This document shows positions 6,417-53,365 of a stretch of DNA of 57,035 nucleotides, in pieces. The position numbers and the translations under genes are program-made. The notes under the pieces are model-generated. The model was not told the origin of the DNA. It did no database searches and saw only the letters and a program-made list of their open reading frames with translations. How positions within the stretch are numbered: the stretch's first letter is position 1; each line of letters begins with the position of its first letter. This DNA is from a virus. The stretch is from IMG/VR virus record IMGVR_UViG_3300045303_000150, positions 1-57,035 of that record, one strand, 5' to 3'.

Positions 6417-8726
6417 ATGGCAGAGGAACACACGGGCGGCATGATCGCGCTGTTGCCGGAGAACCCGGAACAGTTCGTCGTGCCCGGCGGCGACCCGGCT
6501 GATCAGATTCACCTGACGCTGGTGTACCTCGGTGACGATGTGGCCAGCTGGCCGAACGCCGTCACCGAGGCCATGAAGAGTGCCGCGTCGTCGCTCGCGC
6601 AGGACTTCATGGGCACCGAGGCGCAGATCTTCGGGCACGCCGTCTGGAACCCGGACAGCGAAGAGTTCGAACCCGCGTCCGTCTACGAGCTGACCGACAA
6701 CGGCGTCCTGTGCGGCTACGCGGAGCGCGCTGGCGAGATGGCGCGCTCGGTCATGGGCGCGATGTATCCGGACCAGCACGTCCCCTACAAGCCGCACATC
6801 ACGGCGGGCTACAACCTGGACGTGACGAAGCTGTCCCTGACCGGCGATGTGCAGTTCCGCACGCTCCGGCTGGCGCTGGGCGGCGAGAACTTCGACTACC
6901 CGCTGACCATGGACTACGACCGACGTTATGGGGCGGAAGGGACTGAGCAGATGGCCGCGAAGATCGAAGTGCAGCCGACCCCACCCGAAGAGGACATTCC
7001 GGACAAAGCGCCCGAACTGTCCAACGGTATCCCGGTCACGTTCCCCGTGGTCATCGTCGAAGGCATGGAGACCGACGACGGCCGGTTCATCGTGCCCGGT
7101 GCGCTCACTCACCGCGCACTTCCGCTCTCCATCCTCGCGCAGACCGCGAACCCGGACGGCGGCGACGGCCACGACGGCGCGGAAGTCATCGGCCGCCTGA
7201 AGACCCTCACCCGGCACCCCGGACCCGAGGTGATCAACAAGGAGACCGGCGAGCCCTTCCCCGAAGGCTCGTTCGTCTGGAGCGGAACCGGCGAGCTGGA
7301 CCCGGACGCGCACGGCACCAAGCTGGCCATGCGCGGCTACCTCACCGGCAACAGCGCGGACCTCGCGGGCGTCGAAGCCGAGTTCGTCTGGGGCGAAGAG
7401 GCCGAAGACGACGGCGTCAAGAACGGCCCCAAGCAGATTCGCATGACCGCCGGGAAGATCGCGGCCACCACGCTCGTGCCGATCCCCGCGTTCGCCCAGT
7501 CCTACATCCTGATCGACGGCCAGGAGGCCGCGCCCAACGAAGAGGCCCTGGCGGCTTCGGCCGCGCCCGCGTGGCGCTGCGCCGAACTCGGCGACGACTG
7601 TTTCCCGTGCGCCGCCGGGCTGGACGTGGACCCGGTCGTGGCCGCCGCGACGCCGATCGGGCGCAACCTGCCGCCCGCGCACGCATTCGCCGATCCGGTG
7701 CTGGACGGCCCGACCGCGCTCACGCTGGACGAGGACAGCATCCCTGGCTTCATCGAGGTCTACGGCCACCTGGCAACGTGGGGCACCTGCCACACCAGCT
7801 TTCCCAACGCCTGCATCACGCCGCCGCACTCGCACGAGGACTACGCCTACTTCAACACCGGTGCCGTCCGGGTGCGCGACGCGGACCGCACGTACTCGGT
7901 GGCCGCCGGGCGCATCACCATGGGCGAGGGTGGCCACGCCAGCACGGCGCTGTCCGCCGCCGACGCGGCCGCGCACTACGACAACGTCAACACGGTCGTG
8001 GCCGACGTGACCGCCGGTGAAGACCAGTTTGGGATCTGGGTGCACGGAGTGATGCGCAAGACCGTCACCCAGGAGCAGATTGACGCCCTGCGTGCCAGCC
8101 CGCTGTCCGGCGACTGGCGGCCCTTCAACGGCGGCCCGCTGGAGCTGGTGGCCGCGCTGGCGGTCAACACCGGCGGGTTCCCGGTGCCTCGCGCTCGCGT
8201 CGCCGCCGGGGTGCCGGTTGCTCTTGTGGCCGCCGGGGTCGTGCGCCAGCCGCTCGCCGCCGGGCTGATCGACCTGGATGCGGTGGCCGACGAAGTGGAA
8301 CGGCGCATGGCCGAACGGACCGAGCTGGCGCAGCGTGCCACGGCGGCCCGCGTCGACATGCGGCTGACGAACGAAGATCGCATGGCCGACGCCATGTCCA
8401 CGCTGCTCAACCTGGACAACCGGATGCTGATCGCCGCCTGGGAGCTGGCCTTCGAGCCGGACGCCGTCGACGTGGAGTACGCCAAGAAGCCCAACTGGGT
8501 GAAGAAGGCTGGCGGCCTGCCGAAGTACATCAAGCGGATCGCCACGCACCTTCAGGAGAAGGGTATGGACGAGTCGCGCGCGATCGCGACGGCGGTCAAC
8601 GCGGCGAAGAAGATGTGCTCCACGGGGGACGTGAACTTCCCCGGCAAGCAGCAGGTCAACCCCGGCTCCCAGGCGGAAGCGTGTGCCGCCGTGGCGGACT
8701 GGGAGAAGAAGAAGGCGGCCAGCTGA
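6417..8726 (+). CDS. 2H-phosphoesterase domain fused to capsid maturation protease, 769 aa
   Basis: ATG 6417 follows the portal stop. Residues 1-150 form a 2H phosphoesterase-like domain with paired motifs H32-L-T34 (HLTLVYLG) and H127-I-T129 (PYKPHITAGY). Residues about 180-370 look like the prohead protease (TDDGRFIVPGALTHRALPLSI, GHDGAEVIGRL), which would cleave capsid precursors during assembly. Residues about 420-600 form a domain often attached to actinophage proteases (ITPPHSHEDYAYFNTGAV). The last 75 residues carry PNWVKKAGGLPKYIKRIA and DWEKKKAA, a recurring C-terminal module. Whether the 2H domain is active is unknown. Confidence 0.85.
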   Translation: MAEEHTGGMIALLPENPEQFVVPGGDPADQIHLTLVYLGDDVASWPNAVTEAMKSAASSLAQDFMGTEAQIFGHAVWNPDSEEFEPASVYELTDNGVLCGYAERAGEMARSVMGAMYPDQHVPYKPHITAGYNLDVTKLSLTGDVQFRTLRLALGGENFDYPLTMDYDRRYGAEGTEQMAAKIEVQPTPPEEDIPDKAPELSNGIPVTFPVVIVEGMETDDGRFIVPGALTHRALPLSILAQTANPDGGDGHDGAEVIGRLKTLTRHPGPEVINKETGEPFPEGSFVWSGTGELDPDAHGTKLAMRGYLTGNSADLAGVEAEFVWGEEAEDDGVKNGPKQIRMTAGKIAATTLVPIPAFAQSYILIDGQEAAPNEEALAASAAPAWRCAELGDDCFPCAAGLDVDPVVAAATPIGRNLPPAHAFADPVLDGPTALTLDEDSIPGFIEVYGHLATWGTCHTSFPNACITPPHSHEDYAYFNTGAVRVRDADRTYSVAAGRITMGEGGHASTALSAADAAAHYDNVNTVVADVTAGEDQFGIWVHGVMRKTVTQEQIDALRASPLSGDWRPFNGGPLELVAALAVNTGGFPVPRARVAAGVPVALVAAGVVRQPLAAGLIDLDAVADEVERRMAERTELAQRATAARVDMRLTNEDRMADAMSTLLNLDNRMLIAAWELAFEPDAVDVEYAKKPNWVKKAGGLPKYIKRIATHLQEKGMDESRAIATAVNAAKKMCSTGDVNFPGKQQVNPGSQAEACAAVADWEKKKAAS

Positions 8727-26822: not shown

Positions 26823-26851
26823 AGTTTACTTTCCCCCCGCAAGGGGGTAAA
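26823..26851 (-). promoter_or_regulatory. Minus-strand leaderless promoter of the HNH gene
   Basis: Reading the minus strand: -35 TTTACC (plus 26846-26851), 17-bp spacer containing the C/G inverted repeat, -10 TAAACT (plus 26823-26828), then 6 bases to ATG 26816. It uses the same palindrome as the plus-strand promoter at 26825-26853. Confidence 0.7.
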
Positions 26852-26853
26852 GT
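26825..26853 (+). promoter_or_regulatory. Promoter with C6/G5 inverted-repeat spacer (copy 4, divergent)
   Basis: -35 TTTACT 26825-26830, 17-bp spacer with CCCCCC-gcaa-GGGGG, -10 TAAAGT 26848-26853. It drives the recombination operon on the plus strand and overlaps the minus-strand promoter base for base. It lacks a clear GGAACGAC leader. Confidence 0.8.
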
Positions 26854-26876
26854 CGATGGGGAAAGGAGGCACTAAG

Positions 26877-47933: not shown

Positions 47934-48251
47934 ATGCGCATCAAGACCCGCAAGTACAAGGAAGGCGAGTCGCTTCCGTCGGACGTGTGCCCCGGTTGCC
48001 GCAACCACAAGAAGTCGAGGAGCGGCATGGGGACGTGCGGTCACCGCGACTGCATCGACTACCTGAACACGATCTCGATCAATGGTGCCACCAAGGACGA
48101 CAAGGACCCGGCGACCGGCCAGGAGTTCCGCAACAAGCGCACCGGCAAGGTCTACAAGGGGTCGTACTCCTTCGGTGAGGGCAAGAACACGGGCGTCAAG
48201 ATGAAGGACGGCTCATCCTTCCGTCTCAGCGACCTTGAGGCCATGGACTGA
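47934..48251 (+). CDS. Zinc-ribbon-like protein, 105 aa
   Basis: ATG 47934 follows TAGGAGAG. It has CPGCRNHKK and CGHRDC near residues 19-40, a possible C4 zinc site, followed by a Lys/Gly-rich basic body (GKVYKGSYSFGEGKNTGVKM). Function unknown. Confidence 0.75.
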   Translation: MRIKTRKYKEGESLPSDVCPGCRNHKKSRSGMGTCGHRDCIDYLNTISINGATKDDKDPATGQEFRNKRTGKVYKGSYSFGEGKNTGVKMKDGSSFRLSDLEAMD

Positions 48252-48463
48252 TGGGCCAGCGCATCCTCAACGAGGACCCATTCCCGGACCTGTTCGACCG
48301 GCGCATGAGCGCGGCGGAGATGGCCAGGTTGAAGAAGGTGCACAGCCGGAAAGTCCTGGAAGCCTCGCTGAAGCGCCTCACGTGCCCCGAGTGCGAGACC
48401 GTCTATGACGGCCAGGGCGACCGCGACAAGTGCATGCGCTGGCACAAGGGCCTGATCTCGTGA
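48251..48463 (+). CDS. C2-x12-C-WH zinc-finger protein (paralog 1), 70 aa
   Basis: ATG 48251 overlaps the previous stop by one base. The C-terminal half has CPECETVYDGQGDRDKCMRWH, giving C-x2-C-x12-C-x3-H. Two further genes within 600 bases share this exact spacing, so this is a small paralogous family. Confidence 0.8.
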   Translation: MGQRILNEDPFPDLFDRRMSAAEMARLKKVHSRKVLEASLKRLTCPECETVYDGQGDRDKCMRWHKGLIS

Positions 48464-48633
48464 GCGCCAGCGGCCTGCCGGAGTCCCTGGAGAAGGGGCG
48501 CGCGTCGGACCGTGAGGTGGCCGAGATGTCCCGCAAGACTCGAATCCTGTGCGGGTGCTCCGTGTGCAAGACCACCTACGTCAATGCCGGGTACGCCTGG
48601 CGCTGCGAGCGGTGGCACTGGCGGGAAAAGTGA
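48460..48633 (+). CDS. C2-x12-C-WH zinc-finger protein (paralog 2), 57 aa
   Basis: GTG 48460 overlaps the upstream TGA. The zinc-type motif is CSVCKTTYVNAG then WRCERWH, again C-x2-C-x12-C-x3-H. The N-terminal half is polar and helical. Confidence 0.78.
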   Translation: MSASGLPESLEKGRASDREVAEMSRKTRILCGCSVCKTTYVNAGYAWRCERWHWREK

Positions 48634-48641
48634 GTTCCATC

Positions 48642-48682
48642 GTGGGGGCGCATCGGGTCGACTCGGCTCGGTGCGCCCCCAC
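48642..48682 (+). terminator. Hairpin between zinc-finger genes
   Basis: An 11-bp stem GTGGGGGCGCA (48642-48652 with 48672-48682) with a 19-base loop and no U-run. It probably attenuates downstream expression. Confidence 0.6.
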
Positions 48683-48712
48683 ACCCATACGCCTCACCAT
48701 CGACGGAGAATC

Positions 48713-48901
48713 ATGAACGCCCCCGACTTCTGGCTGGCCCGCTTCGGCGCGCCGCACATCGTCCACCTGGACCCCGCCGGGGGCTGGACGCATCTCTGGA
48801 TCGACAACGGAAGTCTCCACACCGGCTGGACGGCGGACCCGCCCACCGACCTCGTGACCCGCTTCGTGGGGCTCACCCTCCCAACTCGAAAGGCCCCGTG
48901 A
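48713..48901 (+). CDS. Hypothetical small protein, 62 aa
   Basis: ATG 48713 follows GACGGAGAA. Trp-rich and beta-like (NAPDFWLARFGAPHIVHLDPAGGWTHLWIDNGSLHTGW). No zinc site. Function unknown. Confidence 0.7.
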   Translation: MNAPDFWLARFGAPHIVHLDPAGGWTHLWIDNGSLHTGWTADPPTDLVTRFVGLTLPTRKAP

Positions 48902-49074
48902 TGGCTGACCGCAAGAGGACCAAGCCGGAGCTGATCCGGCACGTGGCGAACCTGCGCTACCTGCGCGAGATGGGCTCCAAGCGCCTGCTGGACAACACAT
49001 GTACCGGCTGTGAGGCCACGTTCATGGAGCGCTGGGCCCGCGACGCGTGCGAGGCGTGGCACAACGAGAAGTGA
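48901..49074 (+). CDS. C2-x12-C-WH zinc-finger protein (paralog 3), 57 aa
   Basis: ATG 48901 overlaps the upstream TGA. Basic N-terminus (MADRKRTKPELIRHVANLR), then CTGCEATFMERWARDACEAWH, with the same C-x2-C-x12-C-x3-H spacing as the genes at 48251 and 48460. Confidence 0.78.
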   Translation: MADRKRTKPELIRHVANLRYLREMGSKRLLDNTCTGCEATFMERWARDACEAWHNEK

Positions 49075-49092
49075 TTCACCTGATCAGGCTAC

Positions 49093-49121
49093 TTGCCAGC
49101 CCCGACAAGAGGGGGTAAAGT
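49093..49121 (+). promoter_or_regulatory. Promoter with C4/G5 inverted-repeat spacer (copy 10)
   Basis: -35 TTGCCA 49093-49098, 17-bp spacer GCCCC-gacaaga-GGGGG, -10 TAAAGT 49116-49121. Leader has CGGAACGAC and CGGAGACC before ATG 49160. Confidence 0.88.
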
Positions 49122-49159
49122 AGTTCAGGTAAGCGGAACGACGGAACGGAGACCCGCAC

Positions 49160-49378
49160 ATGCACGAGAAGCTCAAGGCCGAAGCCGTCCGCCTGGACAA
49201 GCTGCTGGCCAAGCAGGAGGCCCACGAGCCCACCGAGCAGGAACGCGCGCTGGATCGCATCGTCGCCGCCAAGCAGCAGGCGTTCGCCGAAGCCAAGCAG
49301 CGCAGCCGACGCGGCCAAACGGACCGCAACTATCAGGGCAAACACCGCAAGCCCAAGAAGGGGAGGCACGAGAAGTGA
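49160..49378 (+). CDS. Small basic helical protein, 72 aa
   Basis: ATG 49160 is set by the promoter and ribosome site. It is a charged helix (KLKAEAVRLDKLLAKQEAHEPTEQERALDRIVAAKQQAFAEAKQ) with a strongly basic tail (RSRRGQTDRNYQGKHRKPKKGRHEK), suggesting nucleic-acid binding. Confidence 0.76.
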   Translation: MHEKLKAEAVRLDKLLAKQEAHEPTEQERALDRIVAAKQQAFAEAKQRSRRGQTDRNYQGKHRKPKKGRHEK

Positions 49379-49581
49379 GCGAACCGGTCACTTTCCAGAT
49401 GTTCATCAACGGCCGCGAAGCCGTCCTGAGTGCCCAGGAAAAGGGCTCCCGGCTCCGTGCGCTGGAGCGCGGCGAGCGCGAGGCCGAGACCCATCGACAG
49501 GTGGTCATCTCGGAACAGCACGGTGACGCCCCGCCGTGGACGCTGGCCAGCTGGGTCGACGGCGTCAAGACGACCGGATGA
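49375..49581 (+). CDS. Hypothetical protein, 68 aa
   Basis: GTG 49375 overlaps the upstream TGA. Mixed, with a charged helix (SRLRALERGEREAETHRQVVIS). No family recognised. Confidence 0.73.
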   Translation: MSEPVTFQMFINGREAVLSAQEKGSRLRALERGEREAETHRQVVISEQHGDAPPWTLASWVDGVKTTG

Positions 49582-49787
49582 GCCGGGACCGGGGCAACGA
49601 GGACCGTGCCCTGATCTACACGGTCAAGCTGGACGGCACGGAGAGCGATCCCAAGCGACGCGCGGAGGCGTTCACCCATGCGACCAAGAAGGCCGACCGC
49701 CACGAGGTGGTCTGCATGCTGAAGCACCGACCCGGCAAAGCGCCGGTCGTAGTCGCCTTGTGGCGGAATGGAGTGCGTGAGGTATGA
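49578..49787 (+). CDS. Hypothetical alpha/beta protein, 69 aa
   Basis: ATG 49578 overlaps the upstream TGA. Layout beta-helix-beta-beta (LIYTVKLDG; RAEAFTHATKKADRHEVVCMLKHRPG; APVVVALWRNG), a plausible small ferredoxin-like or RNA-binding fold. Function unknown. Confidence 0.73.
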   Translation: MSRDRGNEDRALIYTVKLDGTESDPKRRAEAFTHATKKADRHEVVCMLKHRPGKAPVVVALWRNGVREV

Positions 49788-49981
49788 GTGACGATGTGAC
49801 CTACTCGGTGTGGGCCGACGGGCGCTGCAAGGAGATGAACATCCTGACGCCTCAGGCCGCCGAGAAGGCGGCACTGAAGCTGGTGGACTCCAAGGCCTTC
49901 CGGCTGGTGACCATCTTCAAGATCACCGAGAACGCCAACATCGGCCACGCCGAGTGGATCGAGGGCGAGCGCATCCTGTGA
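49784..49981 (+). CDS. Hypothetical protein, 65 aa
   Basis: ATG 49784 overlaps the upstream TGA. Helix-beta (LTPQAAEKAALKLVDSKAFRLVTIFKI). Function unknown. Confidence 0.73.
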   Translation: MSDDVTYSVWADGRCKEMNILTPQAAEKAALKLVDSKAFRLVTIFKITENANIGHAEWIEGERIL

Positions 49982-50223
49982 TCGTCACCGAGGGCCCAGG
50001 GCGTGGCGAACCCTGGGCATGCGACACGACCGAGGACGACTCTGGCAACCAGAACACGCGGCGCTGGCACCGTGCCTATTTCGCCGTGCGCGGCGACGCC
50101 CGCCGGTGCGGTCAGAGCGCGGTCAACGTGCGCGGCGGGGTGATCATGAAAGCCGTGCTGCTCCGGATGGGCGACGACGGTTCGTACTACCCGATGGGCA
50201 CGTACGTCCGCCGCGATCCCTGA
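49978..50223 (+). CDS. Hypothetical protein, 81 aa
   Basis: GTG 49978 overlaps the upstream TGA. It has two Cys (WACDTT; RRCGQS) and a C-terminal beta stretch. Its stop is 2 bases before the -35 of the non-coding RNA promoter. Confidence 0.72.
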   Translation: MIVTEGPGRGEPWACDTTEDDSGNQNTRRWHRAYFAVRGDARRCGQSAVNVRGGVIMKAVLLRMGDDGSYYPMGTYVRRDP

Positions 50224-50225
50224 GC

Positions 50226-50254
50226 TTGACAGCCCCCCAGTCGGGGGGTAAAGT
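50226..50254 (+). promoter_or_regulatory. Promoter with C6/G6 inverted-repeat spacer (copy 11), drives the ncRNA
   Basis: -35 TTGACA 50226-50231, 17-bp spacer with CCCCCC-agtc-GGGGGG, -10 TAAAGT 50249-50254: consensus at every position. No GGAACGAC or ribosome site follows; the RNA structure begins at once. A 10-codon leaderless reading frame (ATG 50262 to TAG 50294) overlaps the first stem. Confidence 0.92.
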
Positions 50255-50412
50255 ACAGGACATGCAGGACGAACCGAGACGGCTAGTCCCCTAGGCACCC
50301 AGTAGTCCTGCAAGGCGGGTGGTGTAGCACGCACCCCAGAGGTAGTAGGCCGAGTGACTCCGGCTGAACCCGACGGAAGACCAGGAGCAGCGACCCTGGA
50401 CCGCCGCCCCAA

Positions 50413-50488
50413 CGTCCCGCCAGAAGCTCCACGGTGGACAGCCCTCGGTGCGCGCCAGGGCTGGCGAAGTTCGACTCTTCGGGGGACG
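50413..50488 (+). ncRNA. tRNA-like element 1 within the ncRNA
   Basis: 76 bases with a 6-bp acceptor-type stem (CGTCCC 50413-50418 with GGGACG 50483-50488) and a perfect T-arm (CGAAG-TTCGACT-CTTCG, 50465-50481). The middle does not fold as D and anticodon arms; it makes a long AGCCCT/AGGGCT hairpin instead. Not a functional tRNA by eye. Confidence 0.5.
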
Positions 50489-50638
50489 GCAAGGTCAGCG
50501 CCCGCAGAACCTTTCTCGGCGGGTGGGGATAGCTCGCACATCCTCAGGTTCGCCCGGCACACCGGGCGGCAACTGTGCGGGGGCAACGGCCTAACCGATC
50601 GGCGTGGAGAGGTACCGCGAAGCGCCGTACGAAGGGTC

Positions 50639-50703
50639 GTGGGTGTACGCCAACTGGAAGAGCGGTGGCTGCATGCGTTGCGGGTTCGAGTCCCGCCACC
50701 CAC
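50639..50703 (+). ncRNA. tRNA-like element 2 within the ncRNA (degenerate anticodon arm)
   Basis: 65 bases with a perfect 7-bp acceptor stem (GTGGGTG 50639-50645, CACCCAC 50697-50703), TA at positions 8-9, a D-loop-like AACTGGAAGAGC, and a perfect T-arm (GCGGG-TTCGAGT-CCCGC, 50680-50696). The anticodon region is only about 15 bases and lacks a proper stem, so it is a tRNA-derived or tRNA-mimic element. Confidence 0.65.
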
Positions 50704-50867
50704 GCGTTACGCGGCAGGCACAACAAGGGCATCACGCCCGAAGGACCGGCATCCGCGTGCATCCCGCGCCATGGCTAGCGGGTGCAGGTTCGGGGCCACC
50801 CTTAGCCGGGGAAGCCTGGGATTGCCCTTAGCGGGGAGCACCAATCCGAAAGCCCCACCAAAGCGCC

Positions 50868-50905
50868 GCCGCTCGTGCTTCTCCCGAATCACGAGCGGCG
50901 GTTTC
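50868..50905 (+). terminator. Strong intrinsic terminator of the ncRNA
   Basis: Stem CGCCGCTCGTG / CACGAGCGGCG (about 50868-50878 with 50890-50900) followed by GTTTCATTT. It separates the ncRNA from the GGAACGAC leader (from 50912) and ATG 50937. Confidence 0.9.
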
Positions 50906-50936
50906 ATTTACGGGAACGACTCGACAGAGGAGAACC

Positions 50937-51200
50937 ATGGGCAAGTCCAATCGGGCCGACGGGTACCGCTTCCGCCTGTACGACGACAACGGGAGGCCGA
51001 AGCACGAGGAGACGTTCAGCTCGCCGGATGACGCGCGAGTGGCTGCCCACTCGTTCGCCACCGACGGAGGCACCAAGCACCGCTACGGCACCAAGACCGG
51101 CAAGTACATCGTGGTCGTGGAGCATCGCGGCGTCGACGGCGAATGGGGCACCACGAGCGAGCACCCCATTACCCCGATTCAAACCCGGAGGACCAAGTGA
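50937..51200 (+). CDS. Hypothetical protein, 87 aa
   Basis: ATG 50937 follows GAGGAGAACC. Its leader has GGGAACGAC, the word normally found between an inverted-repeat promoter and the start codon, but the promoter lies 650 bases upstream beyond the ncRNA. The product is basic with a YGTKTGKYIVVVEHRGVDGEW beta segment. Function unknown; first of five coupled genes to 52399. Confidence 0.76.
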   Translation: MGKSNRADGYRFRLYDDNGRPKHEETFSSPDDARVAAHSFATDGGTKHRYGTKTGKYIVVVEHRGVDGEWGTTSEHPITPIQTRRTK

Positions 51201-51427
51201 GCGACCAGTTCCGCATCCTGACCAACATTCCCGGCAAGCGCACCCGCGAGGATGGCCCGTACTCCAGCCTCCGTTCCGCGAACACTGCCGTGTCCGGCAT
51301 CAAGACCACGCTGGCCAAGGCGTGGAAGAACGAAGAGGCCAGGGTGTGCACGCTCTGGATCGAGCGCAACGACAATGGCCACTGGGTGGCCGTCGGTGGC
51401 GTCGACGAATTCCAGGTGGGCGGCTAG
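51197..51427 (+). CDS. Hypothetical protein, 76 aa
   Basis: GTG 51197 overlaps the upstream TGA. Similar in plan to its neighbour (SLRSANTAVSGIKTTLAKAWKNEEARVCTLWIERNDNGHWVAV): helix, then two beta strands. Possible distant paralog; function unknown. Confidence 0.73.
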   Translation: MSDQFRILTNIPGKRTREDGPYSSLRSANTAVSGIKTTLAKAWKNEEARVCTLWIERNDNGHWVAVGGVDEFQVGG

Positions 51428-51660
51428 TGGGCCGTCCGGCCGAGACTTACCGCGTCATCTCGGCCATCCCAGAAGGGGCCCTCACGGAGGGCCCCTTCCA
51501 CGGGCAGGGCGAGCTGAACGCGTACCTGCGCCGGTGGATTCCCACGCTGCGCGGCGCGTACAAAGGCCTGACCATCGACGTGACCACCGAGGTCTTCGAC
51601 CGCGAGCGGTTGCGCTGGGTCCGGCACAACTTCACCCGAGTGAAAGGGAACCCTAAGTGA
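51427..51660 (+). CDS. Hypothetical protein, 77 aa
   Basis: GTG 51427 overlaps the TAG of the previous gene by one base. Layout beta, helix, beta (TYRVISAIPEGAL; GELNAYLRRWIPTLRGAYKG; LTIDVTTEVF). Function unknown. Confidence 0.72.
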   Translation: MGRPAETYRVISAIPEGALTEGPFHGQGELNAYLRRWIPTLRGAYKGLTIDVTTEVFDRERLRWVRHNFTRVKGNPK

Positions 51661-51890
51661 GTGTCGATATGCGGACCGCGCCATATTGCGTGACCGTGAC
51701 CACCCACACCACGAACACCGTGACCGGCTGGGAAACCCCGGAACGGGCGCTCATGCAGGCGGCCATGCTGCACGCGGCGCGCAAAGGCCATGAGCACCTG
51801 GGCTGGTGGGCGTGCGACGTGAAGCAGCGCACCGGCCGCGACAAGTGGCGCACCATCCAGAAGTTCAGCGTGGGGCGGGTGGTCCTGTGA
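51657..51890 (+). CDS. Hypothetical protein, 77 aa
   Basis: GTG 51657 overlaps the upstream TGA. Layout beta, helix, beta (YCVTVTTHTTNTVTGW; ERALMQAAMLHAARKGHEHLGWWACDV). Similar plan to the two preceding genes. Function unknown. Confidence 0.72.
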   Translation: MSVDMRTAPYCVTVTTHTTNTVTGWETPERALMQAAMLHAARKGHEHLGWWACDVKQRTGRDKWRTIQKFSVGRVVL

Positions 51891-52399
51891 TCTACGCGCT
51901 CGCCTGGATCATCGGGATCTGCAACCCGCTGTCCGCGCTCCTGGTCGGTCCGTGGCTGGCCCGTCGCGTTGCCTGGGCCCGGAAGGCTCAAGGCGTCGGC
52001 TGGGCGCTTCTCGCGCTCGCTCAGGTCGCCTTCCTGGCGTTCGGGTTCGCCAGCCAGCTGGACGGCTTCCGGTTCGCTCAGCCGCTCATGATTCCGCTGG
52101 CACTGATGAACTTCGCCGCGTGGCTGAGCATGCGTCGCCCGTCGGCGCGTTCGGCCGAAGCAGGTGCGCGCGCCGTGCAGGCGATGGCGGAAGGAATGCG
52201 GGTCGCACAGGTTGCCGAAGTGCTGCTGCGCATGGATGCGGAGCAGCAGCGCATAGACGATGAAGGCGACGCTGAGCTGGCCTGGTACTACTACCGCGAA
52301 GAGGTGGAAGACGCTCTGGGTCTTCCCTCGGGCGCGCTGGACTCGGCCGATTCAATGTCGTGGGAACCTCTCCTTGACTCCCCCGACAACAGGGGGTAA
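51887..52399 (+). CDS. Membrane protein with charged C-terminal helix, 170 aa
   Basis: GTG 51887 overlaps the upstream TGA. Three hydrophobic segments (about residues 2-22, 37-55 and 63-83) are followed by a soluble helical tail (ARAVQAMAEGMRVAQVAEVLLRMDAEQQRIDDEGDAELAWYYY). Its TAA stop (52397-52399) is part of the next -10. Confidence 0.75.
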   Translation: MIYALAWIIGICNPLSALLVGPWLARRVAWARKAQGVGWALLALAQVAFLAFGFASQLDGFRFAQPLMIPLALMNFAAWLSMRRPSARSAEAGARAVQAMAEGMRVAQVAEVLLRMDAEQQRIDDEGDAELAWYYYREEVEDALGLPSGALDSADSMSWEPLLDSPDNRG

Positions 52400-52402
52400 A
52401 GT
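52374..52402 (+). promoter_or_regulatory. Promoter with C5/G5 inverted-repeat spacer (copy 12)
   Basis: -35 TTGACT 52374-52379, 17-bp spacer CCCCC-gacaaca-GGGGG, -10 TAAAGT 52397-52402. Leader has CGGAACAAC and AGGAGACC before ATG 52436. It lies entirely within the end of the upstream gene. Confidence 0.88.
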
Positions 52403-52435
52403 TCACCTCAGCGGAACAACGAGAGGAGACCCGCA

Positions 52436-52663
52436 ATGCCACGAGGACGCTACGGCGCATTCGCCCAGCGCAAGCCGCACGGCGAATGCAGCAAGGGCCA
52501 CGAGATCTTCGAAGAGAACAAGCTCAACGGCACGTGCCGCGCCTGCACCACCGCCCACAAGTGGGCCAGCCGCAACAACCTGTTCAACGACGACCCGCGT
52601 GCCATCGCGCGGGCCAATGAGCTCTACGCCAAGTACCGCCAGCAAGCCGGAAAGGACTCCTGA
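52436..52663 (+). CDS. Zinc-finger / HNH-like small protein, 75 aa
   Basis: ATG 52436. It has CSKGHEIFEENKLNGTCRAC, a C-x3-H-x(10)-C-x2-C site, then a helical tail (TTAHKWASRNN; ARANELYAKYRQQAG). This looks like the metal site of HNH-type proteins without clear catalytic His-Asn. Confidence 0.72.
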   Translation: MPRGRYGAFAQRKPHGECSKGHEIFEENKLNGTCRACTTAHKWASRNNLFNDDPRAIARANELYAKYRQQAGKDS

Positions 52664-52665
52664 TC

Positions 52666-52854
52666 ATGGCTCGCAAGACAATTCGATACAGCCTCAACGA
52701 GGGCGAATCGATTGAGGACGCTCAGGACTTCATCGAGCGCGAGTACCCCGGCGTGCGCGCCGTGTCCGCCGTCCGCACCGAGGGGCCCGGCACCTACTCG
52801 CTCACCTTCTCCGGCACCGGCCCCGGCATGACCAAGCTGAACAGGGACTGGTGA
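52666..52854 (+). CDS. Hypothetical protein, 62 aa
   Basis: ATG 52666 is 2 bases past the previous stop. Beta-helix-beta (IRYSLNEGESIEDAQDFIEREYPGVRAVSAVRTEGPGTYSLTFSG). Function unknown. Confidence 0.73.
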   Translation: MARKTIRYSLNEGESIEDAQDFIEREYPGVRAVSAVRTEGPGTYSLTFSGTGPGMTKLNRDW

Positions 52855-52856
52855 CC

Positions 52857-52889
52857 ATGTCAGAGATCAACTTCACGATCCGTACCTGA
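52857..52889 (+). CDS. Possible 10-residue leader peptide
   Basis: ATG 52857 to TGA 52887-52889 encodes a 10-residue peptide (MSEINFTIRT) whose stop overlaps the start of the helix-turn-helix gene (TGATG). It could couple or regulate translation of that gene. Too short for certainty. Confidence 0.35.
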   Translation: MSEINFTIRT

Positions 52890-53365
52890 TGGCGCAGAAG
52901 AGAGCTCGAAGCCTGAGCCGCGTGGGGCGGTCTGTGGTCAACACCAGTCGCCCCGCACGGCCTGGGCGAGACAAGTCAGGTGCGCCGCCCCTGCCCGTGC
53001 TGCCAGTCGTGCCCCTGGACGTGTACCGGCCAGGGCTGGAGCTGGAGTTGGTGCAGGCGATCGCGTACGCACGCGGTCAGGACCACACGCTGTCCCGCCA
53101 GTTCGGGGTGAGCGTCAGTACGGTGTCCAAGATCCGACGCGGCAAGCACGCCGCCCAGCAGTGTCGAGAGGATGACGAAGTGCTGTACCGCGCATGGTCG
53201 ATGGAGGGTCGCACGACGTGCGTGGGGATAGCCACGCACCAGCTCGCACGGGCTGAGGCCGACGCCCGCATTTTCATCAGCGAGCACGGCGTGTCTCAGG
53301 TGGACATTCAGCAGAAGAAGGGCGTGATCTGGACTCGGATAGACACGCTGCACGCTCCCGCTTGA
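52889..53365 (+). CDS. Helix-turn-helix DNA-binding protein, 158 aa
   Basis: ATG 52889. Residues about 65-95 contain a classic helix-turn-helix (DHTLSRQFGVSVSTVSKIRRGKHA). The N-terminus is basic and Pro-rich, and the C-terminal half holds helices (TCVGIATHQLARAEADARIFISEHGV). It is a candidate regulator of the inverted-repeat promoters. Its stop lies at the -35 of promoter copy 13. Confidence 0.8.
   Translation: MAQKRARSLSRVGRSVVNTSRPARPGRDKSGAPPLPVLPVVPLDVYRPGLELELVQAIAYARGQDHTLSRQFGVSVSTVSKIRRGKHAAQQCREDDEVLYRAWSMEGRTTCVGIATHQLARAEADARIFISEHGVSQVDIQQKKGVIWTRIDTLHAPA

Follow-up and report, generated by a model that had tools for sequence, protein, structure and literature searches.

A tRNA-like domain without an anticodon arm in a predicted noncoding RNA of an uncultured actinophage

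The window analysed here, a 57,035-nt record of an uncultured virus, contains what its sequence signals well support as a noncoding transcription unit of ~640 bases that has a promoter and a terminator to itself. Only one structured part of this RNA is recognisable, a tRNA-like domain that is absent from an earlier reading of the same DNA made from its letters alone (hereafter the sequence-only reading) and that would be unable to decode as drawn. We tentatively interpret the unit as an autonomous noncoding RNA of the phage in which a tRNA mimic is embedded and which RNase P probably cuts; its role would be that of a decoy or of end protection. This interpretation leads the field while falling somewhat short of an even chance. 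The gap, the promoter family, the terminator-like hairpin, the lack of coding and the tRNA-like domain can each be located in the sequence, at the following window positions:

50226-50254, + strand: promoter box TTGACAGCCCCCCAGTCGGGGGGTAAAGT, with a palindromic C6/G6 between -35 and -10
50263-50312, + strand: 5' hairpin with an 8-bp closing stem, TGCAGGAC/GTCCTGCA; z = -3.14, pair probability 0.8-0.99
50413-50489, + strand: possible second tRNA-like element, with T-arm CGAAG-TTCGACT-CTTCG (50465-50481) and a 6-bp acceptor-like pairing CGTCCC/GGGACG
50638-50704, + strand: tRNA-like domain; Rfam RF00005, 30.0 bits, alignment to phage tRNA-Trp
50765-50784, + strand: hairpin CCCGC-GCCATGGCTA-GCGGG, 20 nt identical to an unannotated tRNA-like RNA of Mycobacterium phage Rey
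50799-50836, + strand: direct repeat CCCTTAGC(C)GGGG, two near-identical copies 26 nt apart, near the RNA 3' end
50866-50901, + strand: terminator-like hairpin CCGCCGCTCGTG...CACGAGCGGCGG, then TTTCATTT; -29.9 kcal/mol, z = -5.78
50909-50936, + strand: leader motif of the next gene, ACGGGAACGAC...GAGGAGAACC; 659 nt to the nearest box, against 11-15 nt at its siblings
50937-51200, + strand: downstream gene of 87 aa, coding by codon usage and without a family match

The virus is an uncultured actinophage, a virus of high-GC bacteria, and portal, capsid, tape-measure, terminase, endolysin, SSB and Erf-like genes were found in the window. Its capsid protein is ~39-40% identical to capsids of Arthrobacter and Gordonia phages and 54-56% identical to those of a few virus contigs, including G003 and G020, which share synteny or the promoter system with the window; the same protein had no match in the bacterial genomes searched. 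A tyrosine integrase was not found in the window, for which reason a phage attachment site inside a tRNA was rejected. Elsewhere in the window, a 769-aa structural ORF (6417-8726) has portal/protease PHROG matches in its central part and, over residues 4-164 at the N-terminus, a match to an RNA-ligase PHROG; it has no Pfam match.

The longest gene-free gap of the record spans 50224-50936, between a gene ending at 50223 and one starting at 50937, and it is noncoding. Trained on 20 genes, a codon-usage test scored true frames at no less than 0.13 (mean 0.33) and the six frames of 50262-50905 at -0.24 to -0.42, in the manner of wrong frames; GC codon periodicity disappears within the gap; and the ORFs inside it had no PHROG family match at E<=0.01. 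The sequence-only reading was therefore right that this long stretch holds no credible gene. An open frame of 225 codons (50354-51031) does cross the region and would favour missed protein-coding genes filling it. Against that explanation stand all six codon scores, the absent periodicity and the lack of family matches, which leave it scarcely credible; at the sequence level, the codon statistics refute a protein-coding reading.

Immediately upstream, the box at 50226-50254 reads TTGACA-17-TAAAGT and agrees with the consensus at 10/12 positions; promoter sites of this kind number three in 48000-53000, where 0.5 would be expected. It belongs to a family marked by a C5-6/G5-6 palindrome between the hexamers, represented by 13 copies on the window + strand and by many in the relatives G003 and G020, so that the consensus promoter claimed earlier is both confirmed and placed within a repeated phage promoter family. 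The regulon outlined by these 13 palindromic boxes (CCCCC-N4-GGGGGTAAAGT) spans 397-56780 on the + strand and also occurs in both relatives, with the boxes followed by a conserved leader, GAACGACC...GGAGAACC, ahead of the start codon. Eleven of the 13 copies have GAACGACC about 11-17 nt past the box, with a ribosome site and start codon at short distance, one exception aside. At 26843 the start codon directly follows the box, and at 26823-26856 divergent copies of the palindromic box overlap in an operator-like arrangement, flanked by a 119-aa ORF pointing leftward and a gene pointing rightward. The box at 50226-50254 is the sole copy in which the leader, ribosome site and ATG of its gene, here 50937, lie 659 nt onward, so that the RNA separates a box from the leader usually found next to it.

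Transcription is expected from the promoter position to start near 50261. At the other end, the terminator claimed earlier survives as a strong 3' hairpin (z = -5.8), whereas its T tract (TTTCATTT) is weak and a terminator scan omitted the hairpin from its list. The element had also been drawn too far, to 50936: positions 50906-50936 already belong to the next gene, as its leader and ribosome-binding site. These signals together predict a likely transcript of ~50261-50905.

Within it, the Rfam tRNA model RF00005 matches 50639-50704 at 30.0 bits over the full model length (curated cut-off 29 bits; E = 6.6e-6), the sole match in the 57-kb record, and 50638-50704 combines this above-threshold score with paired acceptor and T stems. 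The acceptor (50638-50645/50697-50704) is an unbroken helix of 8 Watson-Crick pairs, that is, 7 pairs plus a C-G extension; 8-bp helices are by themselves not rare in shuffled sequence (~2.2 expected). T8 and A9 are kept, the D-arm (50648-50664) consists of three pairs closing a CAACTGGAAGA loop that includes the two guanines, and the T-arm (50680-50696) is perfect, GCGGG-TTCGAGT-CCCGC; the discriminator is G, and CCA is not encoded. A 15-nt linker (50665-50679; GTGGCTGCATGCGTT) stands where a normal tRNA has ~22 nt of anticodon arm and variable loop, and it contains no five-pair stem with a seven-base loop, so that the domain has no anticodon arm able to decode. ARAGORN at default settings reported no tRNA in the window, and with lowered thresholds it returned 119 hits there and was useless. 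The best database match of the domain is the tRNA-Trp(CCA) that Streptomyces phage Paolo encodes (E = 0.04; 71% of the domain aligned), with a 7-8 nt gap over the anticodon; this and other actinophage tRNA-Trp have D-loop and T-arm segments in common with the domain, which differs from them in its missing anticodon arm, its other acceptor stem and its embedding in a longer unit. Constraining the 644-nt RNA to form the acceptor and T stems costs +1.7 kcal/mol; in the unconstrained ensemble the acceptor is paired ~5% and the T-stem ~40%, and other pairings dominate.

Perfect T-arms occur only twice on the + strand, both within the 650 nt, where shuffles predict 0.02. The other one lies in 50413-50489, which we regard as a possible second tRNA-like element; its acceptor-like CGTCCC/GGGACG pairing is not significant alone, and the Rfam tRNA model found no match in this segment.

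The RNA as a whole has z = -0.37 against shuffled sequence, and its 120-nt windows average z = -0.17, compared with -0.44 for control windows elsewhere in the genome. The interior thus shows no gain in folding over shuffled or coding sequence, at odds with the earlier description of a region packed with stems. The exceptions are local and number three: the 5' hairpin (z -3.1), the tRNA-like domain and the terminator. The 8-bp stem previously described as a long-range closure is real (50263-50270/50305-50312) and closes a local 50-nt hairpin instead. Nearer the 3' end, a pattern scan of viral contigs for the double CCCTTAGC repeat gave nothing. The 20-nt hairpin identity with phage Rey (E = 2) may be chance, and a scan of viral and genome contigs for a third example of the 50765-50784 hairpin recovered only Rey-like phages and chance matches. 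In Rey itself (L203:2479-2586), the unannotated ~106-nt tRNA-like RNA containing this hairpin lies between tRNA-His and tRNA-Cys, and its acceptor stem differs in sequence in a relative while the pairing is kept.

Searches for homologues by blastn in phage and plasmid collections returned none, and neither the syntenic relatives G003 and G020 nor about 50 other capsid- or terminase-related virus records shared anything beyond promoter and leader. A neighbouring gene led to one more contig, which lacks the RNA; the H93 match lies in a 1.6-kb unannotated stretch that no RNA family matched. In the data examined, the RNA is specific to this phage.

The sequence-only reading had likened the element to GOLLD and ROOL and proposed a comparison with Rfam. 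GOLLD, ROOL, OLE and tmRNA were all without a match and are rejected, being excluded at Rfam sensitivity; the likeness failed even at permissive thresholds. The model of the conserved GOLLD 3' domain (RF02032) gave no match at E <= 10, whereas the same tool, as a positive control, recovered the GOLLD of Mycobacterium phage Rey with a score of 182.5 bits, a tRNA lying within it. ROOL reached neither its gathering score nor E <= 10, and neither Rfam nor ARAGORN found a tmRNA (RF00023) with a tag ORF between tRNA-like halves. No tRNA island of the kind near GOLLD appeared, ARAGORN counting 0 tRNA against one tRNA-like match in the window. GOLLD resembles the present RNA as a large noncoding RNA of actinobacterial phages, sometimes with a tRNA inside, and its linker can contain tRNAs (PMC12286853); the window RNA differs in having no match to it and no conserved 3' domain, and thermodynamics give no sign of a large ordered fold.

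By way of working, the nearest analogue is mascRNA in MALAT1. The mascRNA/menRNA family (RF01684, in MALAT1/MENbeta) likewise has a tRNA-like domain of ~60-67 nt, made up of acceptor, T-arm and a reduced D-arm and set within a longer noncoding transcript, and it was the second-best Rfam family for the window domain. The comparison concerns how the RNA might work: mascRNA/menRNA is an animal nuclear RNA, the window domain scores 18.7 bits against a cut-off of 42.5, and mascRNA has a longer stem at the anticodon position where the window has its 15-nt linker. The mascRNA of MALAT1, a tRNA-like domain without a conserved anticodon loop, is recognised through its elbow by RNase P and RNase Z (PMC11693755).

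In the favoured interpretation, the phage regulon promoter would drive an RNA of ~50261-50905, with the hairpin ending transcription. The mimic, derived from or resembling a phage tRNA-Trp, would have lost the anticodon arm while keeping the acceptor, the T-arm and the D-loop/T-loop elbow. From these retained parts we infer that host tRNA machinery, most likely RNase P, may recognise the elbow and the 12-13 bp acceptor/T stack and, as with mascRNA, cut at about 50638, releasing a ~377-nt 5' RNA and a tRNA-like/3' RNA. Because the released RNA could not decode, its use would be either as a decoy occupying tRNA-binding enzymes, whether tRNA-targeting defence nucleases or processing enzymes, or in stabilising the ends of the parent RNA. 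For YrlA, the tRNA-like domain was proposed as a possible competitive inhibitor of anticodon nuclease (PMC7790460), and two recent papers link phage tRNAs to escape from tRNA-cutting defences (PMC10264068, PMC11555353). A bolder version, in which an anticodon-less tRNA, or possibly two, in a ~640-nt regulon-promoter transcript defines a new phage RNA class whose processed product serves as a decoy for host enzymes that handle or cut tRNAs, we consider unlikely. A phage RNA that keeps only the non-decoding half of a tRNA would separate decoy and processing roles from codon supply.

The mimic is favoured by the sole RF00005 match, the two perfect T-arms, the 8-bp acceptor and the small folding cost, and likewise by the promoter, displaced leader and terminator, the lack of a coding frame and the rank of mascRNA-menRNA. 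It is weakened by the lack of homologues, an interior no more stable than shuffled or coding sequence, the low pairing of its stems in the free ensemble and the possibility of a decayed tRNA-Trp gene. That last possibility, in which the region is the remnant of a phage tRNA gene or small tRNA array, its tRNA-Trp-like gene having lost the anticodon by deletion, and now decays without function, is the chief rival, less probable than the mimic while still a serious contender. Phages are rich in tRNA genes, the domain itself is matched best by tRNA-Trp genes of phages, aligned with a gap over the anticodon, and a relic would fit both the ordinary stability of the interior and the conservation not found in the relatives searched. 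Decay is harder to reconcile with a perfect acceptor (8/8) and T stem (5/5), with retained elbow residues, with an acceptor that differs in sequence from the tRNA-Trp match and yet is fully paired, and with a dedicated promoter and terminator around a unit whose tRNA-like share is only ~67/644 nt. If the domain is a relic only, the case still cautions against reading an ornate RNA into a promoter, a terminator and a long gap.

Third in rank, and distinctly unlikely, is a long 5' leader with an attenuator controlling the 87-aa gene 50937, its hairpin a conditional terminator and its tRNA-like part a sensor. The RNA does lie exactly between a standard box and that gene's standard leader and ribosome site, and the gene has no box of its own; such a leader was, however, not seen at other box-driven genes of the window, G003 or G020, an antiterminator pairing was not identified, the hairpin is very strong, and gene 50937 has no recognisable function to regulate. 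The size, phage location and embedded tRNA-like part could also suggest a large ornate RNA of a new kind, assembling as GOLLD or ROOL do and bearing tRNA-like parts in a linker, the place where GOLLD carries tRNAs in published work (PMC12286853) and in phage Rey here. The absent GOLLD/ROOL match, the lack of excess folding stability and the lack of homologues make this highly improbable, and by any test run here the window RNA is not an ornate RNA.

Most remote of the RNA-based explanations, with very little probability, is a Y RNA or Y-RNA array using a host Ro60 protein. YrlA resembles the window RNA as a bacterial noncoding RNA with a tRNA-mimicking domain and occurs in related phages: two capsid-related records (G037 and G044) have Y-RNA-like arrays beside a Ro60 gene, and the YrlA model (RF02553) scores 16.7 bits over the region. 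That score is far under the cut-off of 69 (E = 1.9) and amounts to noise. In YrlA the module lies within a Ro60-binding stem and its order is circularly permuted (T-arm, acceptor, D-arm), whereas the window domain has its arms in normal order, no Ro60-binding stem was identified, and a search of the window for the Ro60/TROVE partner (PF05731) found none. In the related phages, G037 (IMGVR_UViG_3300009978_000030; L183:5800-7851) carries, immediately upstream of a Ro60/TROVE gene borne by the phage, tandem Y-RNA-like RNAs with permuted tRNA modules, whose YrlA score of 37.3 bits falls below the cut-off. In G044 (L201:1590-2300), a Y-RNA-like array whose units share AAGGTGAGGGATACTTCG and have T-arms lies upstream of a second phage TROVE gene. 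In another related phage, G021, a single degenerate tRNA-like element whose T-arm is perfect (L187:14118-14222, - strand) lies between structural genes.
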